From the NCBI GenBank assembly GCA_021199235.1, contig JAJQIL010000105.1:1-42650 (forward strand): 42,650 nucleotides of DNA, given 5' to 3'. Positions 13,760-41,599 of the stretch are shown here, one piece after another. The position numbers and the translations under genes were made by a program. The notes below the pieces were generated by a model. The model worked only from the letters and a program-made list of their open reading frames with translations, searched no databases and was not told the DNA's origin. This DNA is from Lachnospiraceae bacterium (GTDB taxonomy: Bacteria > Bacillota > Clostridia > Lachnospirales > Lachnospiraceae). The number at the start of each line of letters is the position of its first letter. The first letter of the stretch is position 1.

Positions 13760-13815
13760 TACCATGGTTGCATGAGACACATAGGAAATCATCCGTAAAG
13801 GAACGGGAATATACC

Positions 13816-15993: not shown

Positions 15994-16052
15994 AAATTAC
16001 AGGCTTCGTGGAGTTAAAAATGATGCCGTCAGGGCAGAGGAGGTGCGGCAGC

Positions 16053-17015: not shown

Positions 17016-17079
17016 GGATTAGTGGAGGAAAACCAAAAAGCAGACTGGCAGATGAGAATGAGAGAAGGGGGATGACCAC

Positions 17080-19467: not shown

Positions 19468-19574
19468 GAAAAGGGAGCGGAAGAACTGCACAGGCAAATG
19501 AGCATTGTGTCACAGCATATTGCAGCGGAAATCGTGAGCAATGAGCGGAAGACAGGAAAGGAGGAGACGGCCGG

Positions 19575-21419: not shown

Positions 21420-21430
21420 AAACTCAGGAG

Positions 21431-22891: not shown

Positions 22892-22914
22892 GTATAAGGA
22901 GCATAGCGGAATAA

Positions 22915-26926: not shown

Positions 26927-26979
26927 CTGCGAAGGTACTTAACAATTACGAAATCTGATAATTTAATAAGGGAGTGAGT

Positions 26980-28461
26980 ATGATGCTTCAGTGCAGGAGA
27001 ATGCAGTTTACGGGTGCGCTTCTGGTGGAAACTGCAGCGGAAGTTCCAAATCCGGGGCGCGGCTGGTATCAGGTCTATAGCTTTGATGTGCGGGAAGCCA
27101 TTGATGAGGAGGAACTGAAATGGTGTCTGAATGTGCAAGAGCATCTGGCGCTTGTCACGCTGGATATTGGCTGCTGCCGTGACCGGGAGCTTGTGGATGA
27201 GGAATTTCTCAATATCCGGCGGATTTTTGATTTTTTTGCTGCGCACGGGAAACAAATGATCGTTCGCACGGTGTATGACCGCGAAGGCAAAGGACCGGAA
27301 CGGGAACCGGAGACCTTTGCTCTGGTGTTGCGGCACATCCGTCAGCTGGGACCGCTTTTTGCGAAATATGCCGCATACATACTTACCCTTCAGGGGCTGC
27401 TGGTCGGCAGCTGGGGAGAACTGCACGATTCACGCTATTTATCTGATACAAAGCTTTATCAGCTGGTGAAGACGATGTGGGAGGCGACAGGTGGCACCTG
27501 TTGCCTTTCTGTCCGCAGGCCGGTGCAGCGCCGCATCCTGTGCGCCTCACCGGATAGCGCGGCATGGAAGATTGGCCTTTTTGATGATGGGCTTTTTGCC
27601 TCTGCTTCACATTTGGGAACATTTGCGGAAGGGGAATATGGCGCGAAAAATGCGGTTGACGGACAGGGACACCTGATTAACAGCCAACCGTGGCCGACCG
27701 TGGACGAGCTGGGGTATCTGGATCGTGAATGCGTACGGGTGCCAAACGGAGGGGAAGCGCCCGACAGTCTGGGAACAGGGGAATGCTCCGGCAGCAGAAA
27801 GGAGGCAGACAGGCCATCTCAGAACGAAATACTGGATACGATGCGTTGCATGCACCTGACTTATTTAAACCGCGTATATTCGGAAAAAGTAATCTCCGGC
27901 TGGAAACAGATGAAGTATTTCGGGGAGGACGCGGCATATCGGGGCTGCACTCTATATGATTATATCGGCCTGCATCTGGGATATCGCTTCGTTATAGAAA
28001 GCGTGTCCGTGTCTCCCGATCGCGGCAGGTCTTTCATGATGCAGCCGGGGAGCAAAAAAGGGCGGATCGAGACGCTTTTCTCATCCATCGGTAAATGGAA
28101 GAGCGGGAGCGGGGATCAGTCCCTGACGCTGACAATCCGCGGGCGCAATGTCGGTTTTGGCAATCTGTACCGTTCCGCGCAGCTGACGCTGATCGCAAGG
28201 GGATCGGATGGCTGTGAGATGCGGAAAAGCCTGGATACGGATCCCCGGGAGTGGGATGCAGGCAAAGAATTTCGTGTGACTGCAGAATGGCCCGGAGAAG
28301 CCGCCGCCGACATAGATGGAATGCCATGGCGGGAGGAACTCTTCCTGCGTCTGAAGCAGGAGGATGGAGAAACGATATGGTTCGCAAACCGGAACGCGAA
28401 AAATCTGCTGCCAATCGGCACTGTGTTTGGGTGGAAACCGCGGCGGGAATTCTCATCCTGA
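26980..28461 (+). CDS. DUF4832/DUF4874-type protein, cytosolic form
   Basis: The start is set at ATG 26980 (493 aa) behind AAGGGAG; GTG 26974 and ATG 26983 are alternatives. The protein has no signal peptide or membrane segment. Characteristic segments are PNPGRGWYQVYSF near the N-terminus, LVGSWGELHDSRYL, RRPVQRR, FDDGLFASASHLGTF, VPNGGE and LHLGYRF. These match DUF4874 followed by DUF4832, predicted TIM-barrel plus beta-sandwich proteins found near exopolysaccharide genes. It is homologous to the product of the opposite gene at 28453-29925, and the two overlap tail to tail by nine bases. Conserved Glu residues in GSWGE and PNGGE could be catalytic as in clan GH-A hydrolases; this is inference. 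Confidence 0.75.
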   Translation: MMLQCRRMQFTGALLVETAAEVPNPGRGWYQVYSFDVREAIDEEELKWCLNVQEHLALVTLDIGCCRDRELVDEEFLNIRRIFDFFAAHGKQMIVRTVYDREGKGPEREPETFALVLRHIRQLGPLFAKYAAYILTLQGLLVGSWGELHDSRYLSDTKLYQLVKTMWEATGGTCCLSVRRPVQRRILCASPDSAAWKIGLFDDGLFASASHLGTFAEGEYGAKNAVDGQGHLINSQPWPTVDELGYLDRECVRVPNGGEAPDSLGTGECSGSRKEADRPSQNEILDTMRCMHLTYLNRVYSEKVISGWKQMKYFGEDAAYRGCTLYDYIGLHLGYRFVIESVSVSPDRGRSFMMQPGSKKGRIETLFSSIGKWKSGSGDQSLTLTIRGRNVGFGNLYRSAQLTLIARGSDGCEMRKSLDTDPREWDAGKEFRVTAEWPGEAAADIDGMPWREELFLRLKQEDGETIWFANRNAKNLLPIGTVFGWKPRREFSS

Positions 28462-29925
28462 TACGGCGCTCCAATCTGCTCCAATCGTCAGTGTTCCGAG
28501 CGGATACCCATATTCTGTTTCTTCCGGGCTGCTTGCAAGCGAGATTTTCGCTCCAGTGACTGTGTCTGTCAGTGTCAGGTACGCGGCGTAGGTGCCTTCC
28601 GACAGATCGCGGACGGGGATACTGACCGTACCGTCTGTGCTTTCTTCGGAGCTCAGGATACAGAGACCAGGATCGGTAGTATAAGAAAGCATTGTTGTCT
28701 CAGCATCGCTGCCATCGATTTTATGCAGCGTGATCATGGCTTCAAAATCTCGTGTGCTCGAGGCGAAGCCTACGTTCTGAATCGTAAAGGAAAAGATGGC
28801 TTCCCCATCGAACCAGGTGTTGAATTCCAGACCGGTTCCGGTCAGGATATAGCGATAGCCCAGATGGGCGCTGATATAGTCGTAGCCGCTGCAACCGTTG
28901 AAAACATCGTCGCCGTCATAGGTGCTTTCTTTCCATGCCTCCAGCACGGTAGTATCATATCCTTCGTTCAGGTAGGAGATATGCATCTGTGAAAGAGTGT
29001 CGATGGCCGCGTCAAGATCGCCGAGCGTGTAGTCGTAGACGACCTCGCCGCCATTTGGTACATAGCGGCAGAGTTCGTCCTGAAAGGCAAGCTCTTCCGC
29101 ACGGGTTCCCTTATCGGATGGGGTGTCAGAACCCGCCCGGGAGGTGTTGCCATAAGTGCCGAGATCCGTCTCGGTGCCTAAGATGCCATCATTGTAAAGA
29201 CCGAGGCGCGAAATCAGGGAACCGTCAGATGCGGGAAAGGAGTCCGGCAGAGAGGTCAGACCCGTGATGGTGCGCCACTGCGCAGGGGTGCGCACAGCGA
29301 GGTAGATAGAGGGATCGGTCAACTCGGCGAGATGTGTGATCAATGAGATCAGATCCTCATTTCCGAGATAAGCGGATTCGTTCATTTCTCCATAGCTGCC
29401 GACAAAAACTCCCTGCAGAATATGGATGGAGTCCGCATAGTGATTGATAATTTCCGAGACCTGTTCCATATGCTCCAGCACCTGATCGAGCGAAGAAGGT
29501 TCACCGGAGAACCCATTGCCGTCCCAGTCATAAAGAAAGCGGAGTATGATCTGCTGGCCGCTTTCGGCCCAGGCGGACAGAATGGCATCGACCTGCGCAA
29601 GAGCGTTATCAGAAAGAGCGCTTTCGGCATATTCTTTCAGATTGATTTCAACCAGAACGAGAGACAGGGCTTCATTTTCTTCGATGTGTTTTTCCAGAGT
29701 TTCCGTAAGGGACTCGTTTTCCTCATTCAGGGAATATGCGTGTATCTGGTAAAAACCGCGATAAGGGTTATCAAGGACGGCGTCCGTTTCTGAGAAGCTT
29801 TCTGAAGACCATGATACAGGAAGATACCGTTGCTGATAAAGAAAAAGGCAGATACCGGCCGCTGCTGCCAGAATAAGGATTGCCGGAAAGAGTATGATAA
29901 AAATCCGTTTTGAACGCTTTTTCAT
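28453..29925 (-). CDS. DUF4832-type protein, membrane-anchored form
   Basis: On the minus strand the start ATG (complement of 29923-29925) has AAGGAG ten bases upstream and gives 490 residues; a longer upstream reading lacks homology. KKRSKRIFIILFPAILILAA is an N-terminal membrane anchor, so the rest is extracellular. The domain order is that of its neighbour at 26980: NPYRGFYQIHAY, LVLVEINL, FVGSYGEMNESAYL, RTPAQWR, LYNDGILGTETDLGTYG, VPNGGE, YISAHLGYRYI, then a C-terminal beta-sandwich. One homologue acts inside the cell and one outside, possibly on the same glycan. The gene runs against the pel transcript and diverges from the PqqD gene at 30087. Confidence 0.8.
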   Translation of the reverse strand: MKKRSKRIFIILFPAILILAAAAGICLFLYQQRYLPVSWSSESFSETDAVLDNPYRGFYQIHAYSLNEENESLTETLEKHIEENEALSLVLVEINLKEYAESALSDNALAQVDAILSAWAESGQQIILRFLYDWDGNGFSGEPSSLDQVLEHMEQVSEIINHYADSIHILQGVFVGSYGEMNESAYLGNEDLISLITHLAELTDPSIYLAVRTPAQWRTITGLTSLPDSFPASDGSLISRLGLYNDGILGTETDLGTYGNTSRAGSDTPSDKGTRAEELAFQDELCRYVPNGGEVVYDYTLGDLDAAIDTLSQMHISYLNEGYDTTVLEAWKESTYDGDDVFNGCSGYDYISAHLGYRYILTGTGLEFNTWFDGEAIFSFTIQNVGFASSTRDFEAMITLHKIDGSDAETTMLSYTTDPGLCILSSEESTDGTVSIPVRDLSEGTYAAYLTLTDTVTGAKISLASSPEETEYGYPLGTLTIGADWSAVSG

Positions 29926-30086
29926 AATAGTGTAACTCCTTGGAGAATTTGGAATGATGTTTTTCCTGTATTGTGTTATTATAGCATGGAAAATACTTTT
30001 GAGGTAGCTATGAAGATATTTACAGTTACTTTTTTGGAAAGAATGAAGTCGAAGGAAGACTTTTTCAGGTCGCAGAGGATATAAGA
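29926..30086. promoter_or_regulatory. Divergent intergenic region before DUF4832 and PqqD genes
   Basis: This AT-rich gap separates two divergent genes. On the minus strand a perfect TATAAT (complement of 29978-29983) could be the -10 of the DUF4832 gene, but no good -35 is seen. On the plus strand I find no convincing promoter for the PqqD gene; AGAGGA at 30074-30079 is its ribosome binding site. Confidence 0.5.
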
Positions 30087-30407
30087 ATGACAGATTCGAA
30101 AAAACGTGACATGAATAAATCGCCGGATATCTCATCGGGGAATGCACCGACCGGCAACCGTTACCAGCTGCGCCGCGCCGCAGGGGTCTGCTGGCTGCTC
30201 GATATGGAACAGCCTGGCATCCCCTATGTGAAGCCGGTGTCAATGAATGAGATGGGAGCGGACATCTGGGAACTGTATGCGCAGGGGTTTACTGCAGAGA
30301 AGATTGCGGAACAGCTCGGCCGGACATATGATGTTCCCGTCGGCCAGGTGAAAGAGGATGTGTATGCGTTTCTGGAGGGCCTGAAAGCGCAGGGAGTTGT
30401 GTTGTAG
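30087..30407 (+). CDS. Stand-alone PqqD-family peptide-binding protein
   Basis: This 106-residue protein starts with ATG 30087. After a 30-residue polar lead, the PqqD fold is recognisable: SMNEMGADIWELYAQGFTAE, KIAEQLGRTYDVPVGQVKED and VYAFLEGLKAQGVV. PqqD domains are RiPP recognition elements that bind the leader of a precursor peptide and present it to a modifying enzyme. It is the first gene of a block that ends with two precursor-like genes (34801, 35215). The downstream Stealth gene follows after 69 bases. A second PqqD domain is fused to a kinase at 39583-40890. Confidence 0.85.
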   Translation: MTDSKKRDMNKSPDISSGNAPTGNRYQLRRAAGVCWLLDMEQPGIPYVKPVSMNEMGADIWELYAQGFTAEKIAEQLGRTYDVPVGQVKEDVYAFLEGLKAQGVVL

Positions 30408-30476: not shown

Positions 30477-31475
30477 ATGGACGGAATTGATTTTGTGATT
30501 ACCTGGGTAGACGGAGACGACCCGGCATGGCAGCGGGAAAAAGCGCGTTATTCGCCGGCCAGAGACGCGGACGCCCGGCCGGAACGCTATCGGGACTGGG
30601 GACTTTTGCCATACTGGTTTCGCGGAGTGGAAAAATTTGCACCCTGGGTCGGGAATATTTACTTTGTCACGTGGGGACATTTGCCCGGATGGCTGAACAC
30701 GGAGCATCCGAAGCTGCGGGTGGTCAATCACCGGGACTATATTCCAGAGGAGTATTTGCCGACATTTAACAGCCGTGTCATCGAGATGCATCTGCATCGT
30801 ATTAAAACTTTAAGTGAGAATTTTGTATACTTTAATGATGATATGTTCCTGACCTCACCGACTGCGCCGGAAGATTACTTTATAGACGGAAGACCCTGCG
30901 ATATGCTGGCATTTCAGCCGGTAGTAGCCAACCCTGCTAATCCGAGTATGTCGCACGAGTTCCTGAATATTTCGCTGATGTTGTCGAAGTATTTTGATAA
31001 ACGGCAGAATGTGAGACAGCATCCCGGAAATTATTTTCATATCGGATATCCGCCGCTTTACTTTTTTTACAACCTGCTTGAGATGGCGTTCCCACTTTAT
31101 ACGGGTCTTTATACATCCCACGGGCCGTTTCCCTTTTGCAAATCTGCTTTTGAAACCATTTGGCAGAAGGAGGAAGATTATCTGAGTGAATTCTCCACGC
31201 ACCGTTTTCGCTCAAATGAGGATGTCGGCCCTTATCTGGTGCGGGAATGGCAGAAGCTGAGCGGGGAATTTCATCCGAAAAATGTGCTGCGGGATCTCCG
31301 ATATTTTAATGTGGGTGATGACAATCAGAAGCTTTGCCGCACGATTGAAAAGCAGAAAGCGAAATGCGTCTGCATCAACGACGCGAACCACGCGATCGAC
31401 TTTGCGGCCGCGAAAGCGAAAATCCGGCAGTCTTTTGAGAAAATTTTACCGGAAAAATCTGCTTTTGAACGATAA
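30477..31475 (+). CDS. Stealth-type sugar-phosphate transferase
   Basis: This 332-residue protein has the conserved regions of the Stealth family: CR1 IDFVITWVDGDDPAW, CR2 FVYFNDDMFLTSP (Asp pair), CR3 HGPFPFCKSAFETIW and RFRSNEDVGPYL, and the C-terminal CINDANHAIDF. Known members transfer hexose-1-phosphate in bacterial capsules, and the human homologue GNPTAB phosphorylates glycoproteins. No membrane segment is present. ATG 30477 follows GGAGGG at five bases. Linkage with PqqD, nucleotidyltransferase and precursor genes opens the possibility that the acceptor is a peptide or a glycan attached to it rather than a capsule. That is inference. Confidence 0.88.
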   Translation: MDGIDFVITWVDGDDPAWQREKARYSPARDADARPERYRDWGLLPYWFRGVEKFAPWVGNIYFVTWGHLPGWLNTEHPKLRVVNHRDYIPEEYLPTFNSRVIEMHLHRIKTLSENFVYFNDDMFLTSPTAPEDYFIDGRPCDMLAFQPVVANPANPSMSHEFLNISLMLSKYFDKRQNVRQHPGNYFHIGYPPLYFFYNLLEMAFPLYTGLYTSHGPFPFCKSAFETIWQKEEDYLSEFSTHRFRSNEDVGPYLVREWQKLSGEFHPKNVLRDLRYFNVGDDNQKLCRTIEKQKAKCVCINDANHAIDFAAAKAKIRQSFEKILPEKSAFER

Positions 31476-31624: not shown

Positions 31625-33175
31625 ATGGCAGAGCAGACACGCACCAGAACAGAATATTCGGTAAAGAATACAACGGTCGCCGTCGCCTCCCGGATGACAG
31701 CCATCCTGATGGGCTTTGTGACCCGGGTGGTGTTTACCCATGTCCTGAGCGAGAGTTACGTCGGTATCAATGGTCTGTTTACGGATATTCTAAATGTGCT
31801 TGCACTCTCAGAACTGGGGGTCGGCACTGCGATCACCTATGCTCTCTATAAGCCGGTCGCGGAAAAAGACACGGAAAAACAGAAGTCTATTATGCGCCTG
31901 TACTGCTGGTTTTATCGGATCGTGGCGCTGATTGTACTGATTGGAGGACTTCTGGTTATCCCGTTTATGGATGTGATTATGAAAGACAGGCCGCAGGTGG
32001 ATCACCTGACGCTGATCTACCTGTTGTACCTGGCGAATTCTGTGCTCTCATATCTCCTGATTTATAAAAAGACGCTGATTGAAGCGCATCAGCTGACGTA
32101 TATCGGCACTTTGTACCACACCATTTTTCTTGTGATACAGGATGCGGCACAGATTCTGATTCTGCTTACAACCGGGAATTTTCTTTTGTTCTGTATTATC
32201 GCCGTAGTCTGTACAGTGTGCGGGAACGTGAGTATCTCCAGGCGGGCAGACCGTATGTATCCGTTCCTGAAGGAACGGGAAGTGGCACCTCTGGGTCAGC
32301 AGGAAAAAAATGAGATTATAAAGAATGTCAGGGCTATGCTGATGCACAAAATCGGCACAGTAATCGTCAATAACACCGATAATATCCTGCTCTCAGCTCT
32401 TGTCGGGCTTGGCAGCGTGGGGAAGTATTCCAATTATTATCTGGTGATCGGCTCCGTGCGCCAGGTGCTGGATCAGGTCTTTCAGGGGATTTCCGCCAGC
32501 GTTGGGAATCTTGGCGTCCTGGAGGATGAAGTACATATACGGAGAATTTTTGAGACATCCTTTTTTATCGGACAATGGCTCTATGGGTTTGCTGCAATCT
32601 GCCTGTACGAGCTGTTGAGCCTGTTTGTAGAGATCAGCTTCGGGGCAAATTATGTTTTTGATCCGGGGGTGGTGCTGGTACTATGTCTGAATTTTTATCT
32701 CACAGGAATGCGGAAGGCAACTCTGATTTTCCGGGATTCACTGGGACTGTTCTGGTACGACCGGTACAAATCCATCGCTGAAGCAGTGGTAAACCTGACC
32801 GTGTCGGTTGTGCTGGCTTTGCGGTTTGGCGCCGCGGGCGTATTCTGGGGAACTTTTATCAGCACGGTGACGACATCTCTCTGGGTGGAGCCATATGTGC
32901 TCTATAAGCATTGCCTGAAGACGTCGGTGCGTTCTTATTTTGCAAAGTACGCAAAGTATGTGGCAGTTTTAGCAGGCGTCTGGTATGTGACAGATTGGAT
33001 TTGCGGACAGATGGGCGGGAATATTCTGGTGAAGTTCTTGCTTCGGCTCCTGATTGCAGCTGTTCTGCCGAATCTGTTTTTTTTGCTGTTATATGGCCAT
33101 ACGAGAGAATTTCAGGAAGTGCTGGCGATTGTGAAAGGAAGGCAGTGGGGAATCAATCGCCTTCGGAAAAGGTAG
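31625..33175 (+). CDS. Polysaccharide flippase, Wzx/MOP superfamily
   Basis: This 516-residue protein has 12-14 hydrophobic helices. The N-terminus YSVKNTTVAVASRMTAILMG followed by VLSESYVGINGLFTDILNVL is typical of Lachnospiraceae capsule and exopolysaccharide translocases. It moves lipid-linked glycans across the membrane. ATG 31625 is six bases behind AGGAGT. It is distinct from PelG, so a second glycan, or a glycan made by the Stealth enzyme, is probably flipped here. Confidence 0.85.
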   Translation: MAEQTRTRTEYSVKNTTVAVASRMTAILMGFVTRVVFTHVLSESYVGINGLFTDILNVLALSELGVGTAITYALYKPVAEKDTEKQKSIMRLYCWFYRIVALIVLIGGLLVIPFMDVIMKDRPQVDHLTLIYLLYLANSVLSYLLIYKKTLIEAHQLTYIGTLYHTIFLVIQDAAQILILLTTGNFLLFCIIAVVCTVCGNVSISRRADRMYPFLKEREVAPLGQQEKNEIIKNVRAMLMHKIGTVIVNNTDNILLSALVGLGSVGKYSNYYLVIGSVRQVLDQVFQGISASVGNLGVLEDEVHIRRIFETSFFIGQWLYGFAAICLYELLSLFVEISFGANYVFDPGVVLVLCLNFYLTGMRKATLIFRDSLGLFWYDRYKSIAEAVVNLTVSVVLALRFGAAGVFWGTFISTVTTSLWVEPYVLYKHCLKTSVRSYFAKYAKYVAVLAGVWYVTDWICGQMGGNILVKFLLRLLIAAVLPNLFFLLLYGHTREFQEVLAIVKGRQWGINRLRKR

Positions 33176-33260
33176 CAGCCAGTGGAGAGCAGCGATCGGG
33201 GAAAATGGCAGCCAGATAGAAGAAATGGACGCAGAAAAATGCGGACAGCGGAGGAACAGG

Positions 33261-34646
33261 ATGCAAAAGGAAGAATTCACATCAGAGGAGCAGGTGCTTC
33301 TGGGGTTACTTACGGAGGCGCTTTGGACTCCAACAGAAAAGTCCTTCAGCCCAAAAAACAAAATACCTGTAGAGCAGATCAGGAATATTGACCTGGGTCG
33401 GCTGTCTGCTATTGCGCAGAAGCATGCAGTATTCCCACTTCTTTACGATGCTGTTTGTGGGGAAGCTGCGATGACGCAGAATATGGCATTCACAGGGAGC
33501 AGCGGGAACGTGAGGGCGTGGAAGCACTTTCAAGAGGAGGCCGAGGAGGCCGCCCGTCATACTGTGCTGCAGGCGTATCACCTGTTGTTCCTGACCAAAT
33601 ATCTGGTTACGTTTCTGGAAGCTCGCGGAGTTTCTGTGATCGTATTAAAGGGTATCAGCGCGGCTGCGGATTATCCTGTGCCGGAGTTGCACAAATCCGG
33701 AGATGTGGATCTGCTGCTTGCAGGCGAGCCGGAGGGAGGGCGTTTGGACAGTATTTCTGAAAAATCTGACAGGGAGCAACCGGAACACCCTGTGGGTAAG
33801 CCAAAAAGGGAAGAGCTTCAGCGTATTATGGCAGAAGCAGGGTTTCGTCTGACAGAGACACAGGATTCCGTGCACCATGATGTGTATGTCTCCTCTGAGG
33901 GAATTGAAGTGGAGCTTCATCTGCTTCCGGCGGAACCATTTGAGGACTCCGCCAGAAATGAGCGCATGAAAACAAGGATGCGGCAGTGCCCGGCACACTG
34001 TGTCCGGCGAGACATTATGGGTGCCGAATTTCCGGTACTCGACCGCCCATACCAGGCATGGCATTTGCTCCTGCATATGCTGCAGCATTTTCTGAGAGCC
34101 GGGTTTGGCTTAAAACTGCTCTGCGACTGGAAAGTCCTGTTCGCGCAGCCGTGGAGTGAGGGAGAAAGGAGAGAACTTACCGGGGTACTCAGAGAAGACG
34201 GGCTTTGCCGTTTTGCGTCTCTGGTTACAGGTGCCTGCGTGAAATATCTTGGCCTGGATGCCTCCAATGTATCGTTTCTGAACCCGGACGAAGAACACGC
34301 GGAACTGTTTCTGCGCGAAATCTTTGATTCCGAAGAATTTGGGCATTCAGACTCCGAGCGCATGGTGGCGATGAAAGGCGCGCGCCTGACGGACTACATC
34401 CGGGAATTTCATCATCAGATGCACCTGAACTATCCCCAAAAGGGGAAGCTTGTGCCGCTCTGGCCCATTCTGTGGACGCTCACTCTGATCCGGTTTCTGC
34501 GCAATAACCGCAGAATCCGGCATACCTCCACGCTTTCTATATTAAAGGCGGCAGGAAAACGCAGCCGCAGGATGGAAGAACTGCGGGTATTTGATGAGCA
34601 GCCGGGAAATAGCCGGGACAGGAAAAATCTACAAAAAAGGATGTAA
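33261..34646 (+). CDS. PF14907-type nucleotidyltransferase
   Basis: The start at ATG 33261 is preferred because GGAGG lies six bases upstream (461 aa); ATG 33225 has no such site. The core motif is SVIVLKGISAAADYP followed by KSGDVDLLL (Gly147-Asp148-Val-Asp150), the metal-binding GDxD of Pol-beta-like nucleotidyltransferases, then VHHDVYVSSEGIEVELHLLP with a third acid. A 30-residue polar insertion (GRLDSISEKSDREQPEHPVG) separates the two halves. PF14907 proteins accompany HprK-like kinases in some Firmicutes lasso-peptide clusters such as that of paeninodin, where peptide tailoring is proposed. Here it directly precedes two precursor-like genes. Confidence 0.85.
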   Translation: MQKEEFTSEEQVLLGLLTEALWTPTEKSFSPKNKIPVEQIRNIDLGRLSAIAQKHAVFPLLYDAVCGEAAMTQNMAFTGSSGNVRAWKHFQEEAEEAARHTVLQAYHLLFLTKYLVTFLEARGVSVIVLKGISAAADYPVPELHKSGDVDLLLAGEPEGGRLDSISEKSDREQPEHPVGKPKREELQRIMAEAGFRLTETQDSVHHDVYVSSEGIEVELHLLPAEPFEDSARNERMKTRMRQCPAHCVRRDIMGAEFPVLDRPYQAWHLLLHMLQHFLRAGFGLKLLCDWKVLFAQPWSEGERRELTGVLREDGLCRFASLVTGACVKYLGLDASNVSFLNPDEEHAELFLREIFDSEEFGHSDSERMVAMKGARLTDYIREFHHQMHLNYPQKGKLVPLWPILWTLTLIRFLRNNRRIRHTSTLSILKAAGKRSRRMEELRVFDEQPGNSRDRKNLQKRM

Positions 34647-34734: not shown

Positions 34735-34800
34735 TAAACAGACGGTTCCTTTCAGGGCGTGTAAAGAGACAGCGGGGCCGGGAAAGAAGGTGTGGATAGG

Positions 34801-35154
34801 ATGATTGATACGTATAGTAAGCCATTGATATTAGCGGACAGTGAACTGGCGGAAGGGGTATATACTTCGAGCGGAAGCGGAAGTGTCGGTTATTCAATCA
34901 AACTGGAAAGCGATTGGGGAGACGGCGGTAAGGTTTATCGTTTGGATATTGACACGCAGAGCCTGACTACGAGTGATAGTTGGTCAATTACGTTGACCAT
35001 TTCAGGAGGGACTGTAACTGGCATCAGCGTTTATGATGGCAGGCTGACCGGCACATTGAGCGGCAGTACGATTACGATTTCTGGCACAGGCGGCGTTTAT
35101 TATTACGATATAGGCCTCTATGTTAATTGCGGCAGTGATGTGACGGTTTCCTGA
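34801..35154 (+). CDS. Precursor-like protein 1 (leader KPLILAD...EGVYTSSG)
   Basis: ATG 34801 gives 117 residues; GTG 34792 would add MDR before M, resembling the MNRM start of protein 2. The first 25 residues carry YSKPLILADSELAEGVYTSSG, which matches the start of protein 2 in 13 or so positions. This is not a Sec signal: there is no long hydrophobic core. The remainder is rich in Ser, Thr and Gly with alternating hydrophobic residues (SWSITLTISGGTVTGISVYD, TITISGTGGVYYYDIGLYVN), suggesting a small beta-sandwich. The layout is leader, EGVYTxSG boundary, variable body, as in exported precursor proteins. It lies 154 bases behind the nucleotidyltransferase gene. The function is unknown. Confidence 0.75.
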   Translation: MIDTYSKPLILADSELAEGVYTSSGSGSVGYSIKLESDWGDGGKVYRLDIDTQSLTTSDSWSITLTISGGTVTGISVYDGRLTGTLSGSTITISGTGGVYYYDIGLYVNCGSDVTVS

Positions 35155-35214
35155 TTTATCGGTGGCAATGATGTCAGGTGTTACATTATTATAAATTTAG
35201 AAAGGGCATTTAAT

Positions 35215-35628
35215 ATGAATAGAATGTATGCAAAGCCGGTAATCCTGGCAGATGACGAGATTTCTGAGGGAGTGTATACGGCGAGCGGCACGGACTGTTA
35301 CACGGTGACCACAAATATACATCAGAGGCCGGAGACCGGCAGGGGCGACTATCGGATTCAGGTGAATGCAGCACACAGCGCAACGCATCATAGTACCGCA
35401 CAGGTGTTGGTGATTTCATTTAATTTGCCGGTTACTTATGTATCATCGAATGGATCGCTTCAAAGCAGTGACGGGACTTCGACTTTGTCTGTTGCTTACA
35501 ATTATCATAACAATGGTTCGGACAATATCGGCCTTGGTGATTTGATTGTGACGGCGGATGAAGGGCTTTCGGTTACCGGAGCATATATGACCTGTAATAT
35601 GACTTGTTCTCAGCATGATGGTCTGTAA
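35215..35628 (+). CDS. Precursor-like protein 2 (leader KPVILAD...EGVYTASG)
   Basis: ATG 35215 has AAAGGG ten bases upstream (137 aa). The N-terminus MNRMYAKPVILADDEISEGV followed by YTASG repeats the leader of protein 1. The body differs: DCYTVTTNIHQ, GDYRIQVNAAHSATHHST, VLVISFNLPVTYVSSNGSLQ, DNIGLGDLIVTADEGLSVTG and a Cys-containing tail (MTCNMTCSQHDGL). The two bodies align weakly over the beta-rich part, so they look like paralogues that kept the leader and diverged in the exported portion. Three Cys residues may form a disulfide outside the cell. A strong terminator follows. Roles such as adhesin, pilin-like surface protein or effector are possible; none is shown. Confidence 0.75.
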   Translation: MNRMYAKPVILADDEISEGVYTASGTDCYTVTTNIHQRPETGRGDYRIQVNAAHSATHHSTAQVLVISFNLPVTYVSSNGSLQSSDGTSTLSVAYNYHNNGSDNIGLGDLIVTADEGLSVTGAYMTCNMTCSQHDGL

Positions 35629-35695
35629 AACAGGTAGTGAGCAGCTTGTCCTATTTCTGAAGAGGTAAATGTTTTTAATTTTATAAGAAAAGGGA

Positions 35696-35729
35696 AAGCC
35701 CGGCGCGAGATGACACGCCGGGCTTTTTT
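35696..35729 (+). terminator. Intrinsic terminator after the precursor genes
   Basis: AAGCCCGGCG (35696-35705) pairs perfectly with CGCCGGGCTT (35716-35725) across a 10-base loop, and the right arm runs into TTTTTT (35724-35729). It is the clearest intrinsic terminator in the window and closes the transcript that includes both precursor-like genes. Confidence 0.95.
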
Positions 35730-35825
35730 CTACTTGTCTGTTCTGGCTTTTTGCATGACTGAGCTGTATTCAAAGTATTTTTGGAGTTAAAAGGTACAAA
35801 GCCTCGAAATATGGGGATGGGACGA

Positions 35826-35957
35826 ATGAGGAGAATAAGAGAATCGCTGGCATTTTGCTGGGGCGTCAAGGCGGGATTGCTGAAGGATTATATTGCGCAG
35901 ACAAAGTGGATTTATTCCTGCGCGCGGCGGTATTGGCCGCCGATGATTTTTTGCTGA
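35826..35957 (+). pseudogene. Decayed N-terminus of a second ABC exporter
   Basis: ATG 35826 opens 43 codons: RESLAFCWGVKAGLLKDYIA, QTKWIYSCARRYWPPMIF, then Cys and a TGA. This is clearly homologous to the start of the intact exporter at 37671 (RERLAFYWGRVKAGRLKDFI, QTKWIYSYARRYWLPMVF), with numerous substitutions at DNA level, so it is not a recent copy. Everything after the first 43 residues is gone. It points to a former tandem pair of exporters, one of which was lost when the AAA/nuclease gene at 36056 came in or by later deletion. Confidence 0.85.
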
Positions 35958-35994
35958 AAATACAAGCTTAAGTGTGGTATCACCGGATTAATTA

Positions 35995-36003
35995 TGTTAT
36001 ACT
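35995..36003 (+). promoter_or_regulatory. Extended -10 element before the AAA/nuclease gene
   Basis: TGTTATACT contains TATACT at 35998-36003 with the TG of an extended -10. No good -35 accompanies it. It lies 52 bases before ATG 36056, which has GGAGG at 36044-36048. Confidence 0.45.
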
Positions 36004-36055
36004 CGATTCATAGAAATGACTGGCTGTTTTACAGAGTATTTAGACGGAGGACTTT

Positions 36056-37639
36056 ATGAAATCTTTCAATACATCAGTTGTCTGTGTCCCGGAAAAGCAC
36101 TATATGGTCGACATGACTGGCCGGGTAAACCGGATTATCGATTCCCTGATTCAAGAAAATAAATATTTTACGATCAGCCGGGCCCGCCAGTTTGGAAAGA
36201 CGACAATTCTTTCCCTGCTCCGCCGTGCGCTTAAACCGGAGTTTTATGTGCTGGCGATCAGCTTTGCGGGCCGGTCGTCGATGTTTGATACGGAAGCATC
36301 TTTTGTCAGGGGATTTGTGCGCAAACTCCGGATTGCCATGAAAAATGAAGGCATGGAGGCGGTGCTGGTGGACGCATTTTCTGCTGAAATTGCGGATGAA
36401 GATGCTTTTGGGGAACTGGATGAGAGAATCACTGAGCTTTGCCGAAACAGTGACAGAGAAATCATTCTGACGATTGATGAGGTGAACCAGAGTACAAATA
36501 ATCAAATCACAGTGGATTTTCTTGCATTATTGAGAGATAAATATATCCGCCGCGAGACGGAAGGCGACCATACCTTTAAAAGTGTGATTCTGGCAGGGGT
36601 TTATGACATAAAAAACCTTCAGATTAAGATTCGGCCCAGGGAGCAGCACAGATATAACAGTCCCTGGAATGTGGCCGCTGATTATAATATCAATATGCTG
36701 TTCGGAACAGAGGAAATTGCAAAAATGCTTTCGGAATATAAAGCAGATCACGGTCTGGATTTTGATGAAGACTGGTTTGCCGGACAGATTTATAGCTATA
36801 CTTCCGGATATCCGTTTATGGTATCAAGGATATGTCAGTTATTGGATGAGGTTGTTACACGGGAGAAGGAACTGGGGTCAGTCAGGAATGCCTGGACCTT
36901 GAATGGATTTTTCAGGGCAATCAAGATTTTTGTGGAAGAGGACAATACTCTGTTTGACGATCTGGAGAAGAAGCTTAATGATTATTCGGATTTACGTGAA
37001 CTGATGTACAGAGTCATTGTGTCAAGGGAATCGGTCCCCTACTCAAAAGGAAACGGAGCAATCCGCCTGGGAGATGCCTTTTGCTGGCTGAAGAATGAGC
37101 AGGGGAAGGTGGTTGTGTTTAACCGGATTTTCGAAACACGTATTTATAATCTGTTTATAGATGAAAAATCTGCAAACCCATTGTACCAGATGGCGTCTTT
37201 GGAAAAGAATGATTTAAAAAATGATGCAGAACTGAATATGGATCTGATCATGGAACGTTTTATGGTGCATTATCAGAGCATTTATGGGACTCGTTCCGCA
37301 GACTTTCTGGAAAATGAGGCGGTATTGATCTTTCTGACATTTTTGAAACCTGTCATCAATGGGTATGGAAATTATTATATCGAGGCAGAGACAGCGGATA
37401 AAACAAAGACAGACATTGTTGTAGATTATAAATCAAAACAGTACATCATCGAAGCAAAGGTGTGGCATGGCAGGAAATATCAGGAGGCAGGAATCAGCCA
37501 GCTTGCCGGATATCTTGAGAGGTATCATCAGGAAAAAGGATGGCTGCTCACGTTTTGTTTTAACAAGAATAAGGAAAAGCTGGTCGGCAGTCACGATCTG
37601 GAAAGCAATGGAAAGAGAATCCGTGAAGTGATTGTCTGA
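36056..37639 (+). CDS. AAA-ATPase with C-terminal PD-(D/E)XK nuclease-like domain (DUF1703)
   Basis: This 527-residue protein has the AAA-ATPase-like module common in gut anaerobes: SRARQFGKTT (Walker A, Gly47-Lys48-Thr49), REIILTIDEVNQ (Walker B-like) and SYTSGYPFMVSRIC. The C-terminal DUF1703 domain has Asp453 in KTDIVVDYK and Glu466-Ala-Lys468 in YIIEAKVW, the D...ExK set of restriction-endonuclease-fold nucleases. Members occur in many copies per genome, behave as mobile gene cassettes, and are of unknown function; defence roles are suspected. It sits between the ruined exporter start and the intact exporter and so looks inserted. It has its own ribosome binding site and possible promoter. 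Confidence 0.9.
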   Translation: MKSFNTSVVCVPEKHYMVDMTGRVNRIIDSLIQENKYFTISRARQFGKTTILSLLRRALKPEFYVLAISFAGRSSMFDTEASFVRGFVRKLRIAMKNEGMEAVLVDAFSAEIADEDAFGELDERITELCRNSDREIILTIDEVNQSTNNQITVDFLALLRDKYIRRETEGDHTFKSVILAGVYDIKNLQIKIRPREQHRYNSPWNVAADYNINMLFGTEEIAKMLSEYKADHGLDFDEDWFAGQIYSYTSGYPFMVSRICQLLDEVVTREKELGSVRNAWTLNGFFRAIKIFVEEDNTLFDDLEKKLNDYSDLRELMYRVIVSRESVPYSKGNGAIRLGDAFCWLKNEQGKVVVFNRIFETRIYNLFIDEKSANPLYQMASLEKNDLKNDAELNMDLIMERFMVHYQSIYGTRSADFLENEAVLIFLTFLKPVINGYGNYYIEAETADKTKTDIVVDYKSKQYIIEAKVWHGRKYQEAGISQLAGYLERYHQEKGWLLTFCFNKNKEKLVGSHDLESNGKRIREVIV

Positions 37640-37670
37640 TCAATGACAGGATGAGGCGTACAGGAAACAA

Positions 37671-39500
37671 ATGAGAGAACGACTGGCGTTTTACTGGGGG
37701 CGCGTCAAAGCGGGGCGCCTGAAGGATTTTATTGCGCAGACGAAATGGATTTATTCCTATGCGCGGCGGTATTGGCTGCCGATGGTTTTTTATACGGCAC
37801 TGGGACTGACGGGGACGGTAGTGTCTCTGCTCTCAAGCCTCGTATCGCGCGACCTGGTGGATATCATCACCGGGCATGAGACCGGCCTGGTAGTGCAGAC
37901 GTTTTGCATGATGATCGGGCTGAATATCGGCAATACCATTGTCAGTATGATTTCCAATTACGCGTCGGAGTGGATCAGCATGAAGGTGGACGCGGAGATC
38001 AAATCTGAGATTTTTGAAAAAATTCTCGTGACGGACTGGGAGAGCCTGACGAATTACCACACGGGCGATCTGCTGACGCGGTGGAGTTCGGATGCGAGTC
38101 AGATTTCCAGCGGCGTGCTGAGCTTTATTCCGAATGCGATTATCTATGCGTTCCGGTTTATCAGTGCCTTTGCCATGGTGATCTATTATGACTGGACGTT
38201 TGCGGTGTTTGCTTTTATGGGAATGCCGGTGTCGCTACTGCTGTCACGGAAACTGATGCGGCGTATGGTGAACAATAATAAGCGCAGTGCTGCTATGGGC
38301 GCGAAGATGTCAGGCTTCAACCAGGAGGCGTTTTCGAATATTCAGACAATCAAGGCATTTGGATTGATTTCCCTGTATGTGCAGCATCTGAAGGATCTGC
38401 AGAAAGAATATATCGATATGAAGCTGGATTTCCAGAGGATGTCCGTCTGGACATCGCTGCTGTTGACGACGGTAGGGCTGGTGGTCTCTTATGCCAGCTA
38501 TGGATGGGGGATTTACCGCGTCTGGAGCGGGGCGATCAGCTATGGTACGATGACGATGTTCCTGTCGCTCTCGGGAACGCTGACGGGCGCTCTCAGCAAC
38601 ATCACCTCTCTTGTGCCGGATGCGATTTCTTTGACGACTTCCGCGGGCAGGCTGATGGATATCGTTGAAATGCCACGTGAGGATTACAGCAATGCACCAG
38701 AAGTGGAGAAGTTTTTGCAGCGCAATAGAACAGAAGGCATCAGTCTTTATGCCGAACACATCCGCTATGCCTATCAGAACGGTACGCAGGTGTTTGAGGA
38801 TGCGACCTTCTGTGCGAAGCCGCATGAGATCGTGGCTCTGGTCGGACCGTCTGGAGAGGGAAAGACGACCATGCTGCGGCTGGTGCTGGCGTTGATGCCT
38901 GTGCAGGAGGGAAGCCTGACTTTGTACGCGAAAGATGCGCGGGCTGAAGCCACGCTTTTGGATGGCGAAGCAGCAGAGGATGTGCCGAGGGAATTTACCG
39001 GGCTGGATGCCATCCCGATGTCCCCGGCCGCGCGGATGATGTTTTCGTACGTGCCGCAGGGAAATACGATGTTTTCCGGCACTATCGCCGGAAATATGCG
39101 CAATGTCAAGGAAGACGCGACCGATGAGGAAATTGTTGAGGCATTGAAGCTGGCCTGCGCCTGGGAGTTTGTAGAGAAACTGCCGGATGGGATATACAGC
39201 GAGATTAAAGAACGCGGCGGCGGTTTTTCAGAGGGACAGGCACAGCGGCTTTCTATTGCGCGTGCTCTGTTGAGGAAATCACCGATCCTGCTGCTGGATG
39301 AAGCAACCTCTGCGCTGGATGTCGCGACGGAACGGCGTTTGCTGCGTAATATCATGAGCGATAAATATCCACGTACCTGCATTGTAACCACACATCGGCC
39401 CACGGTTCTCACAATCTGCGACCGGGTATACGCAATCCGGAACCGACAGTGTGAAGTGCTGGATGAAAAAGCGGTAGAGCAGATGATTCAAGATTTTTGA
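37671..39500 (+). CDS. ABC exporter, fused membrane and ATPase domains
   Basis: This 609-residue half-transporter has six transmembrane helices (about 30-320) and then an ATPase domain with Walker A GPSGEGKTT (392-400), the unusual signature FSEGQ (519-523, instead of LSGGQ), Walker B LLLDEAT (Asp543-Glu544) and the H-loop THRPT. A 25-residue insertion lies between Walker A and the Q-loop. There is no N-terminal C39 peptidase domain, so leader cleavage must be done by another enzyme; the Ser/His signal peptidase at 41135 is the candidate. It probably works as a homodimer and exports the two precursor-like proteins. The ribosome binding site is weak (CAGGAAAC). The start is supported by the homologous remnant at 35826. 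Confidence 0.9.
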   Translation: MRERLAFYWGRVKAGRLKDFIAQTKWIYSYARRYWLPMVFYTALGLTGTVVSLLSSLVSRDLVDIITGHETGLVVQTFCMMIGLNIGNTIVSMISNYASEWISMKVDAEIKSEIFEKILVTDWESLTNYHTGDLLTRWSSDASQISSGVLSFIPNAIIYAFRFISAFAMVIYYDWTFAVFAFMGMPVSLLLSRKLMRRMVNNNKRSAAMGAKMSGFNQEAFSNIQTIKAFGLISLYVQHLKDLQKEYIDMKLDFQRMSVWTSLLLTTVGLVVSYASYGWGIYRVWSGAISYGTMTMFLSLSGTLTGALSNITSLVPDAISLTTSAGRLMDIVEMPREDYSNAPEVEKFLQRNRTEGISLYAEHIRYAYQNGTQVFEDATFCAKPHEIVALVGPSGEGKTTMLRLVLALMPVQEGSLTLYAKDARAEATLLDGEAAEDVPREFTGLDAIPMSPAARMMFSYVPQGNTMFSGTIAGNMRNVKEDATDEEIVEALKLACAWEFVEKLPDGIYSEIKERGGGFSEGQAQRLSIARALLRKSPILLLDEATSALDVATERRLLRNIMSDKYPRTCIVTTHRPTVLTICDRVYAIRNRQCEVLDEKAVEQMIQDF

Positions 39501-39582
39501 TCGGGATTGCATATTTTACGGATGGATGCTGAAATATCAAAGCAGACATTTTAGCTGCAGGAAAGCGAAGTATTCATTCGTT

Positions 39583-40890
39583 TCATAAATGTTGCGAATC
39601 AATCAGTTCTTTCATATAGATGGCGGCTTCGTCTTCTTTTGTGCAGTTAAGACGTCGTACAGGTACAAGCAGTGAAACTGCTTCCGCGAAGCGCAGGTTG
39701 CTTTCGAGCTGGTTGCGTGTCCATACGGGTGAGATAAAACGCTGTGAAAGAAGCAGTATCTGCCGGTCTGCATCCGGAGTCTGACAGAGATTATGCCTGG
39801 ACTGCTTCAAAAGAATTACTCCGCCGAGCGGATATTCTTCTGTTGTCGAGATGCCGGAGGTGCCGCACCAGGGAAGACCGCAGACGTAAGGCGTGCCTTT
39901 TCGGATGGTGAGCAGGTTCAGGTCGCCGTTCAGAATGGGGACTCCAAACAGCCTGTTCCAGATTTCGGTGTGTGTCGATTTTCCGGTGCCGGATGGCCCG
40001 GAGAAAAGCCAGGCCTTTCCCTGATACAGGATGGAGGCGGAGTGCAGGGCGTATATGCCTTTTTTTTGAGCGAGATAAAGGTAGGCAAAGCGAATGGCAT
40101 GGAACAGATCCGTAACAACCTGCCCTTCAAGAGGCGGTGTGCAGATGCAGCGGGCGTATGCTTCATCTTTGCGCAGAATCATCTCCTGAATCTGCGGAGC
40201 CTGTGGAAAATGAATCTGTAAGAAGTTACCACGGTCCTTTATGGTGAGTTCCGGGTGACAGATGAGATATGGGGCTGAAGAGGCAGCCGTATGCCGGAAT
40301 CCAGATCCAAAATGTTTATCCGCCGGAGAGGACGCGGGTATCACTTCAATGGTAAGGTCAATCATCCTGCTGCTTTCTGCTTTGCATGCAAAAGGAGCAA
40401 ATTCAGGAGCGAAAGCGGCAGTCGGGCCGAGGAGTCGGAGCGTCAGGCCGCCGATTTCCAGATAACGCTCACCGATGCAAGCGAATTCTTCTGCAGGGTA
40501 AGAACCGGCTTCAAAGGTGAAATTCGATGTCGGATGAATCTGGGTGGTGGAATGATGAAATTCCGGCTTTTTATTGAGCGCGTTTTCAGTAATTATTTTT
40601 GTATTCACCTGTTCTTCTGTCTGCAGAATTCCAAAGTCCATGAGCCGATCAAGAAATTCATCCATGTCTGCCTTTAACCGAGGCAATTCCTCTTTTGTGG
40701 CATGATAGTAGGATGCGAATGACGAGAGCAGTTCCTCATAGGAAGGAATATTCTGCAACTGTTTCCAGAGAAAAACTCCCGTTTCATTGACGAGAATTCC
40801 GTGCCTGAGCTCGGCAACGGCCTGCCCAAAGGGAAGGATATAAGGCGTTCCCGCTATATTCTGTAAGGTCCAGCATGGATTCAGCTTCAT
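39583..40890 (-). CDS. PqqD-HprK fusion: leader-binding serine kinase
   Basis: This 435-residue protein on the minus strand has GGAGGAG seven bases before its ATG. Residues 1-95 are a PqqD domain (GILVNETGVFLWKQL, TKEELPRLKADMDEFLDRLM). Residues about 275-400 are an HprK-like kinase: Walker A GPSGTGKST at 298-306, NGDLNLL with Asp323, and GLPWCGTSGI at 338-347, as in HprK-like enzymes that phosphorylate lasso-peptide precursors in paeninodin-type clusters. Fusion of a leader-binding element to a kinase argues that the substrate is a leader-bearing peptide, here most likely the products of 34801 and 35215, whose bodies are rich in Ser/Thr. It converges on the ABC exporter and diverges from the signal peptidase gene. 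Confidence 0.88.
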   Translation of the reverse strand: MKLNPCWTLQNIAGTPYILPFGQAVAELRHGILVNETGVFLWKQLQNIPSYEELLSSFASYYHATKEELPRLKADMDEFLDRLMDFGILQTEEQVNTKIITENALNKKPEFHHSTTQIHPTSNFTFEAGSYPAEEFACIGERYLEIGGLTLRLLGPTAAFAPEFAPFACKAESSRMIDLTIEVIPASSPADKHFGSGFRHTAASSAPYLICHPELTIKDRGNFLQIHFPQAPQIQEMILRKDEAYARCICTPPLEGQVVTDLFHAIRFAYLYLAQKKGIYALHSASILYQGKAWLFSGPSGTGKSTHTEIWNRLFGVPILNGDLNLLTIRKGTPYVCGLPWCGTSGISTTEEYPLGGVILLKQSRHNLCQTPDADRQILLLSQRFISPVWTRNQLESNLRFAEAVSLLVPVRRLNCTKEDEAAIYMKELIDSQHL

Positions 40891-40911
40891 AGGTTTCTCC
40901 TCCAGTCACTT

Positions 40912-40917
40912 ATTATA
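40912..40917 (-). promoter_or_regulatory. -10 element of the PqqD-HprK gene
   Basis: A perfect TATAAT (complement of 40912-40917) lies 21 bases before the start codon. It gives a leader of only about 15 bases that still includes the GGAGGAG box (complement of 40897-40903). No recognisable -35 hexamer is present; that position is taken up by the palindrome at 40920-40937, suggesting activator-dependent or repressible control. Confidence 0.6.
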
Positions 40918-40919
40918 GG

Positions 40920-40937
40920 AAACGGTTTTAACCGTTT
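40920..40937. promoter_or_regulatory. Palindromic operator candidate AAACGGTT-TT-AACCGTTT
   Basis: Eight-base half-sites AAACGGTT (40920-40927) and AACCGTTT (40930-40937) form a perfect inverted repeat with a two-base centre. It begins two bases upstream of the TATAAT of the PqqD-HprK gene, so a bound dimeric regulator would contact RNA polymerase. No matching regulator gene is visible next to it. On the plus strand it could also form a small hairpin followed by TTTTCTTTT, but no plus-strand gene precedes it. Confidence 0.7.
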
Positions 40938-40977
40938 TCTTTTGCGCCGTTGCTGTGTGCCAGTGGTACATGTTTAG

Positions 40978-41037
40978 CATGACCGAAGCGGTAGCGTAGA
41001 TGCAAGGCTACGTAGCAACCATTCCATTGCGGTCGTG
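40978..41037. other. Potential structured element upstream of the signal peptidase gene
   Basis: CATGACCG (40978-40985) can pair with CGGTCGTG (41030-41037; one G-U pair), enclosing CGTAG/CTACG and the perfect palindrome GCTACGTAGC (41007-41016). The fold spans 60 bases in the divergent gap between the PqqD-HprK and signal peptidase genes. It could be an RNA leader, a repeat element or protein-binding DNA. Confidence 0.35.
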
Positions 41038-41134
41038 TGCATCGAATTAAAAATTTTGTGTTCAGTGTATCATTTTTTGAACCATAATGCTATAATCATC
41101 TGTAAATAGTTTTGAAATAAGTCGGTGAATAGAA

Positions 41135-41599
41135 ATGGCAGAACAGAAAGTGGATATTGAGCAGCTTCTTGCCGAAGGACGCTCCATTCAGATAAAGCCG
41201 CAGGGAACCAGTATGTTCCCTTTGTTTCTTGAGGGGCGGGATGAAGCGGTGATCGCGCCTCTGACGGAGAGTGGACGCGCTTCTCTGCGCTGCGGTGATG
41301 TGGTACTTTACCGCCGCGACCATGGGATTCTGGTTCTGCATCGTATCAGCCGCTGTACCTCGAAAGGTTTTTACCTTGTAGGAGATCATCAGAGTGAGCT
41401 GGAAGGCCCGATTCGGGGGGATCAGATTCGCGGGATTCTGACAGGATTTATCCGCAGTGGAAAATATTGCTCTGTTCGCCATCCGGTTTATATTCTGGCA
41501 AGTCGCTGCTGGCTGGTGCTGCGTCCGCTGCGGCCGGGAATTCTTTGGTTTTTGCATTGGGTGAAAGATTATTTCAGAAAGAGTTCAAGTGACAGATAG
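41135..41599 (+). CDS. S24/S26 signal peptidase-like protein with Ser/His dyad (SipW type)
   Basis: This 154-residue protein has the box GTSMFPLF with nucleophile Ser26, then CGDVVLYRR and VLHRIS with His69 where bacterial type I signal peptidases have Lys. A Ser/His pair is the mark of S26B enzymes (ER signal peptidase, SipW). FYLVGDHQSE corresponds to the GDN region. The N-terminal membrane anchor of ordinary signal peptidases is missing, and a hydrophobic C-terminal segment (VYILASRCWLVLRPL) may hold it in the membrane. Such S24/S26 proteins accompany PqqD/HprK/nucleotidyltransferase clusters, as here. It may cut the leader of the precursor-like proteins, since the exporter lacks a peptidase domain. 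The ribosome binding site GGTGA is weak; TATAAT stands at 41091-41096. Confidence 0.8.
   Translation: MAEQKVDIEQLLAEGRSIQIKPQGTSMFPLFLEGRDEAVIAPLTESGRASLRCGDVVLYRRDHGILVLHRISRCTSKGFYLVGDHQSELEGPIRGDQIRGILTGFIRSGKYCSVRHPVYILASRCWLVLRPLRPGILWFLHWVKDYFRKSSSDR

Follow-up and report, generated by a model that had tools for sequence, protein, structure and literature searches.

RiPP recognition element (RRE) leaders, RiPP standing for ribosomally synthesized and post-translationally modified peptide, are handles for making short peptide natural products. The 42,650 nucleotides of Lachnospiraceae bacterium contig JAJQIL010000105.1 analyzed here (GenBank assembly GCA_021199235.1, positions 1 to 42,650; hereafter the window) raise the question of what such a leader does on two whole small proteins, encoded near a Pel-type exopolysaccharide (EPS) block, an ATP-binding cassette (ABC) exporter, a PqqD domain fused to a P-loop kinase-like domain (the PqqD-kinase) and a candidate S26-type peptidase. 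We consider it probable that this locus encodes a pathway, assembled from RiPP-type parts, in which a leader guides the maturation and export of small extracellular proteins and which delivers mostly CBM2-like bodies to the matrix. Directly supported are the gene linkage, the conservation of the leader, the diversity of the bodies, one predicted CBM2-like fold, one CBM2 sequence likeness and the association with Pel genes. Our analysis points to a real, conserved system that appears to fit the delivery of matrix proteins better than the making of a peptide antibiotic, with a chemistry that is proposed below. No description of this gene set was found in the available portions of the literature or in the family libraries searched.

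Leader proteins and their linkage to the PqqD-kinase

The leader core comprises 21 non-hydrophobic residues with the pattern Y-x-x-P-x-[VIL]-x7-E-G-V-Y-x-x-S-G. The two window leader proteins match one another with an E-value of 6e-7; chance resemblance was rejected on this value and on the recurrence of the leader across kinase loci and family genomes. Searched in the whole genome, a 44-row leader profile that includes both window leaders gave E-values of 1.5e-11 and 9.6e-10. A set of 124 unique leader proteins was assembled, of which two were dropped from the spacing analysis for lack of Y-x-x-P; the pattern used requires the Ser, which both still have. The Ser of S-G follows the Tyr of Y-x-x-P at a distance of 19 in 117 of 122 measurable leaders, of 20 in three and of 18 in two. 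Among these 122, Tyr itself is present in 120, the residue at Tyr+5 is V (78), I (29), A (9) or L (6), and the position two before the G of S-G holds A, G, S or T in 121.

By a simple hydropathy threshold, 123 of the 124 proteins show no Sec-like hydrophobic stretch, and a Sec signal in the leader was rejected, as only one reaches a mean hydropathy of 1.6 in a 15-residue window within the first 40 residues. The initial annotation had described the leader as non-Sec, which agrees with the hydropathy, and as bound by PqqD; the Y-x-x-P pattern and the residue at Tyr+5 support a leader of RRE type. Bare leaders searched against NCBIfam and Pfam returned only RNA_pol_Rpb6 and DUF5972, with weak E-values. 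Residues 7-22 of the leader protein 2 structure model have a pLDDT below 50; the possibility that leader and body form one fold was rejected. Leaders on differing bodies of one locus resemble each other above expectation, to which relatedness or gene conversion could add.

To assess linkage, public genomes were scanned with the kinase only, leaving the leader unused, and the best 80 of 138 confirmed stretches were combined with the window into 81 loci. L028-L035 were excluded from these counts, seven being copies of loci retained and L034 having no kinase. A hidden Markov model (HMM) started from nine leaders identified a leader protein in 64 of the 81 loci. The other 17 include 10 that end at most 2.9 kb downstream of the kinase, one of which (L106, from the contig that also holds L033) breaks off within a body of the leader-protein-2 type. 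In 70/81 loci the kinase has an ABC exporter no more than 5 kb away, and an S26 gene is present in 60/81, upstream of and opposite to the kinase in 54 of them. A nucleotidyltransferase (NTase) occurs in 37/81 loci; in 13/81, a stand-alone PqqD is encoded no more than 12 kb from the kinase. These counts define a core of leader protein, PqqD-kinase, ABC exporter and, mostly, S26 peptidase. The NTase and the stand-alone PqqD, initially listed as parts of the system, are extras, even though both window members match their families well above cut-off (PF14907, 96.0 bits against 31.2; PF05402, 52.6 bits against 23.4). Named isolates in the set of 80 include Eubacterium plexicaudatum ASF492 (L049), Coprococcus catus (L109) and Roseburia porci (L044), each of which encodes leader proteins.

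The reverse direction was examined in 397 genomes of the family, 23 of which match the leader profile. At most four kinase candidates were scored per genome, and the threshold of 230 bits was set after the list had been seen. A kinase of at least 230 bits is found in 21 genomes; 20 of them carry the leader, and the 21st (G180) encodes a divergent leader protein beside the kinase (E-value 2.4e-4). G296 and G442 combine leader proteins with a kinase below 230 bits in a similar gene order. G131 and G304 have a broken kinase frame and yielded no leader. Leader-type proteins occurring widely without any of these genes had been named initially as evidence against a single system; leader proteins in a genome lacking the kinase were found in one of the 23 leader genomes, the incomplete G230 (68% complete), which has three leader proteins and no kinase (all candidates scored). 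Co-occurrence in both directions, from kinase loci and from leader genomes, bears out one system. In G230 (loci L150, L151, L152 and L200) the three leader proteins lie on three contigs, one being Cys-rich and two of another small type, and a stand-alone PqqD directly precedes the PelD-like gene. Leader genes far removed from the kinase also occur (G387, G106, G113, G118), so that the leader may act over a distance. All leader matches fall within this family in samples from the order (295 genomes) and the class (291), both of which include family genomes.

The lack of a Sec signal by hydropathy and the often regulatory role of kinases are compatible with an uncleaved leader that serves as a regulatory tail rather than for export, on proteins acting intracellularly on Pel synthesis. 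CBM2 is an extracellular type of module. Together with the frequency of the ABC and S26 genes given above and with bodies carrying conserved cysteines, this makes such a tail very improbable.

PqqD-kinase, exporter and candidate peptidase

Library scans of the window covered 20 proteins encoded between 13768 and 41599. The fused PqqD domain matches PF05402 with 31.8 bits (cut-off 23.4), and this match is present in 45/45 PqqD-kinases. For the kinase part of the window protein, no Pfam or NCBIfam match above cut-off was obtained (ScmC 13.9 bits, cut-off 125). At E ≤ 0.1, HprK_rel_A (31/45, best E-value 2.7e-4) and ScmC (27/45, best 2.2e-5) are the commonest kinase-part matches in NCBIfam, and the HPr kinase family PF07475 gave no match at E 0.1 in any of the 45. 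The fusion had first been annotated as PqqD-HprK: its PqqD half stands above cut-off, while the HprK half comes down to a P-loop motif and library matches that are all below cut-off. Of the motif made up of H, GxxGxGKS and an Asp pair, H, K, S and one Asp are found in 81/81 loci, and Gly stands before that Asp in 81/81.

The Pfam matches of the ABC exporter include no C39 peptidase domain, in line with the initial description of an exporter without its own peptidase. Double-glycine/C39 export was rejected, as neither a C39 domain nor a double-glycine leader was found. The candidate S26 peptidase has no Pfam match, and its NCBIfam matches are weak and below cut-off (archaeal signal peptidase 4.1e-5, Ni-superoxide dismutase protease 6.8e-5, SipW 0.007); a PDB profile search gave no useful match. 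Ser26, His69 and Asp84 are invariant in seven sequences of this weakly matched protein.

In the bsf lasso cluster, according to the available part of its description (PMC10368454), an HPr-kinase-like enzyme phosphorylates core Ser3, 19 residues after the leader Tyr, and a PqqD-type RRE speeds this phosphorylation. As the invariant leader Ser lies at the same distance from Tyr and the RRE is here fused to the kinase, this Ser is a natural candidate for phosphorylation. We infer leader binding, phosphorylation and its site, the cleavage site, the export route and polysaccharide binding as follows. The PqqD (RRE) domain of the fusion would bind the leader core, after which the HprK-related kinase would most likely phosphorylate the invariant Ser 19 residues after Tyr. 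The S26 Ser/His peptidase might then cut the leader beside this Ser, either after S-G or just before Ser, and so substitute for the C39 domain missing from the exporter. Signal peptidase cut sites follow a rule of small residues at -3 and -1, which S-G fits. The ABC exporter would carry the body out, and the mostly stand-alone CBM2-like bodies would bind or cross-link polysaccharide produced by the neighboring Pel-type genes.

Bodies, radical-SAM cousins and the Pel link

Leader protein bodies measure 53-147 residues (median 111, n = 124). In the seven-member cluster of leader protein 1, five members match Pfam CBM_2 (best E-value 1.1e-6), the window member not being among them, and the profile of this type matches 1exg with an E-value of 0.0011. 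Leader protein 2 has a CBM2-like sandwich fold in the predicted structure, as expected from the beta-sandwich body proposed initially. PDB profile searches with the leader-protein-2, type-2 and Cys bodies gave no useful match. Some loci encode several bodies, some body families have conserved cysteines, and no sequence outside the leader is common to the families. A Cys-rich family (L036, L041, L053 and others) carries invariant C-x-S and C-x-G-C motifs and was not matched in PDB profiles. Very short Cys-rich bodies of 53-58 residues with the same leader occur in L134, L135 and L159.

A kinase-profile match without leader was found in 67 genomes, mostly representing shorter kinases without PqqD part, next to broken or lone long kinases (G131, G304, G107 and G133) and PqqD-only matches. 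Ten cousin loci (L169-L178) were chosen from these genomes by hand, not at random. A radical S-adenosylmethionine (SAM) protein lies close to the kinase cousin in eight of them (not L173 and L175), based on motif and HMM and on Pfam in the three tested; the HMM detects 15 frames in these eight loci and none in the 81 kinase loci. Several cousin loci also contain PqqD, NTase, ABC and S26 genes. The motif Asn-Gly-Asp (NGD) was read in the kinase cousins of seven of the ten loci, the P-loop pattern failing to read the other three. Some loci encode precursors of 85-152 residues with, by eye, the leader Y/W-x-x-P...N-E-Y-V-A-A-C, in which Cys lies 19 after the aromatic residue, or the alternative Y-x-x-P...I-A-G-x-C with a Cys spacing of 20. 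A cut just before Ser in the PqqD-kinase loci would parallel the A-A-C of these cousins. Four radical SAM proteins (best 25 matches each) and six precursors gave no NCBIfam model above cut-off. The fused PqqD is closer to the PqqDs of the cousins (24-37 bits) than to the stand-alone PqqD of the window (6.8 bits). Both groups can be read as a single wider family comprising a branch with radical SAM and Cys and a branch with Ser and no radical SAM. They share NGD in the kinase and, in several cousin loci, also PqqD, NTase, ABC, S26 and a Y/W-x-x-P leader, whereas the cousins differ in the presence of radical SAM, in Cys at the position of the leader Ser, in an unfused PqqD and in the scarcity of PelG.

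PelG is encoded by 70 of the 397 family genomes. It is present in 23/24 leader genomes (the exception being G180), in only 4/67 genomes with a kinase-profile match and no leader, and in 43 of the remaining 306. In 19 of the 22 genomes that have PelG and the kinase, the two share a contig and are 7.8 to 19.0 kb apart. L044, L049, L054, L078, L092 and L094 have a stand-alone PqqD immediately between the PelD-like gene and the S26-kinase pair. The Pel locus, the CBM2-like bodies and the radical-SAM cousins had all escaped the initial annotation. In the available part of a Pel survey (PMC7112168), Roseburia pel lies inside a larger cluster interpreted as capsule or teichoic acid genes, and PqqD is not mentioned in the main text.

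The bodies could instead be antimicrobial or signaling precursors tailored by kinase and NTase, making the Pel link incidental. An RRE leader, a kinase and an NTase indeed occur together in phosphorylated lasso clusters; bodies are diverse, with several per locus in some cases, and the cousins lie in radical-SAM clusters. Such a RiPP natural product is nevertheless improbable given the body length and the CBM2-like members, the NTase in fewer than half of the loci (37/81) and a strong Pel association that is absent in kinase-profile genomes without leader.

A more specific version of the delivery pathway is tentative and, taken as a whole, rather unlikely: the kinase-fused RRE would phosphorylate the leader Ser of folded carbohydrate-binding proteins, thereby licensing cleavage and ABC export, so that matrix lectins are released only alongside Pel, with Ser replacing the Cys of the radical-SAM sister pathway.

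Several observations speak against the pathway or parts of it. No leader protein was found in seven kinase loci that are not cut in the 3 kb downstream, 21/81 loci have no S26 gene by HMM (some are cut by contig ends), and the S26 assignment itself depends on weak matches. Long kinase frames (379 and 403 aa; below 230 bits) occur in G107 and G133, which gave no leader match. The Cys-rich family (18/124) shows no link to the CBM2-like bodies in these searches, the residues conserved in leader protein 2 do not include the CBM2 Trp face, and a CBM2-like fold is by itself no proof of binding. In the available part of PMC10368454, changing Y, P and L in BsfA left phosphorylation going. Aligned with true HprK by hhalign, the profile of 45 kinases matches in the P-loop only (probability 12.5), and the Asp pair of HprK/BsfK is Gly-Asp (NGD) in 81/81 kinases; because one Asp of the pair is replaced throughout, kinase activity may differ or be absent. 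The last two findings, and body families without a common modifiable sequence outside the leader, would suit export without chemistry, in which the PqqD-kinase-like protein would act as an ATP-dependent chaperone or gate, holding on to the leader and passing the protein to the exporter, and would phosphorylate no residue. We regard this as possible yet doubtful, as the invariant H, GKS, D and other motif residues suggest catalysis, HprK_rel_A and ScmC are the commonest kinase-part matches (below cut-off in the window member), and a lasso kinase with a PqqD partner does phosphorylate according to the available part of PMC10368454.

If the delivery pathway holds, the RRE handle seems to mark whole folded domains from several families for delivery, in connection with the biofilm polysaccharide of gut bacteria. 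Lachnospiraceae would then possess a way of delivering matrix proteins that bypasses Sec, small proteins without a name in gut genomes would be explained, and the tag might carry other domains out of these hosts.

Gene layout and relation to known systems

The features of the window are listed in Table 1. All gene positions given initially were recovered, with the NTase reading frame opening at 33225 (33261 being an inner ATG). Likely starts are 34801 for leader protein 1 (alternative GTG at 34792) and 35215 for leader protein 2. After the Pel block follow glycosyltransferases and DUF4832 proteins and then, in a single direction, PqqD, Stealth, flippase, NTase and both leader proteins; the AAA ATPase, ABC exporter, PqqD-kinase (opposite strand) and S26-type peptidase lie 3' of these. 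Compared with the loci of relatives, the AAA ATPase gene between leader proteins and exporter is outside the conserved block. In L028 and L029, just short pieces of this gene match at the equivalent place. The AAA ATPase gene is preceded by a short piece (~35828-35960) similar to the 5' end of the exporter gene, as if it were the remnant of a severed exporter copy.

Table 1. Coordinates of features in the window
Feature	Position	Strand	Remarks
Leader protein 1	34801..35154	+	Leader ~34810-34875; CBM2-like body, 7-member cluster
Leader protein 2	35215..35628	+	Leader ~35224-35289; commonest body type; predicted CBM2-like beta-sandwich
PqqD domain fused to HprK-related P-loop kinase-like domain	39583..40890	-	PqqD match residues 32-89; motif residues 283-323
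ABC exporter, permease and ATPase in a single chain	37671..39500	+	Pfam ABC membrane and ATPase domains
S26-type Ser/His peptidase, candidate leader peptidase	41135..41599	+	Without strongly hydrophobic anchor
PF14907 NTase, optional part	33225..34646	+	Pfam
Stand-alone PqqD protein, optional part	30087..30407	+	Pfam
Stealth-type protein	30477..31475	+	PF11380, PF17101, PF17102 above cut-off; presumably a sugar-phosphate transferase
Wzx-type polysaccharide flippase	31625..33175	+	PF01943
Pel-type exopolysaccharide block	13768..24372	+	Pfam and position
Epimerase/PelD-like	13768-15993	+	PelD assigned from epimerase part and position
PelE-like	16008-17015	+	Position only
Pel block gene	17080-19467	+	
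DUF2194	19575-21419	+	In Pel block
PelF	21431-22891	+	DUF3492, 260 bits
PelG	22915-24372	+	PF16933, 497 bits
DUF4874/DUF4832 protein, EPS accessory	26974..28461	+	
DUF4874/DUF4832 protein, EPS accessory	28453..29931	-	
AAA ATPase, weak nuclease-like end	36056-37639		Pfam scan

No lasso protease (transglutaminase-like B2) or cyclase (Asn-synthetase-like) and no radical SAM protein was detected among the 20 window proteins, as annotated initially (the cyclase was not sought genome-wide), nor was a cousin-type radical SAM found in the 81 loci. PF13471 is above cut-off in 2/24 leader genomes (G180 and G296), both times on a contig other than that of the kinase. A strict lasso or radical-SAM RiPP cluster was rejected on the lack of protease B2 among the 20 window proteins and of radical SAM in the 81 loci.

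A close comparison is with phosphorylated lasso peptides, among which we take the paeninodin type to be a cluster akin to Bsf. As far as the available part of PMC10368454 goes, BsfA/BsfK/BsfB1 and the window have in common the YxxPxL spacing, a PqqD-type RRE, an HPr-kinase-like kinase, a predicted nucleotidyltransferase, an ABC exporter and an equal distance from Tyr to the phospho-Ser of BsfA or the invariant leader Ser. The window differs by its S26 peptidase, the fusion of PqqD to the kinase and the missing lasso protease/cyclase, and its YxxPxL-type leader precedes bodies of 53-147 residues instead of a short core peptide. By their known make-up, the SynChlorMet cassette and HPr-rel-A systems in NCBIfam likewise combine an HprK-related kinase with PqqD, but the window kinase has no match above cut-off and a cousin-type radical SAM is missing here. 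C39-type peptide exporters act on double-glycine leaders and resemble the proposed route in leader-dependent ABC export, differing in the C39 domain and GG leader not found here. SipW is membrane anchored and acts on Sec substrates. In the available part of PMC10269814, TasA/SipW of Bacillus pairs a matrix protein with an archaeal-like (S26B) signal peptidase dedicated to it, whereas a non-Sec leader and an ABC exporter are found here. With the Gram-positive Pel locus pelDEADAFG, as described in the available part of PMC7112168, the window shares PelD with an epimerase part, PelF, PelG and DUF4832 neighbors.

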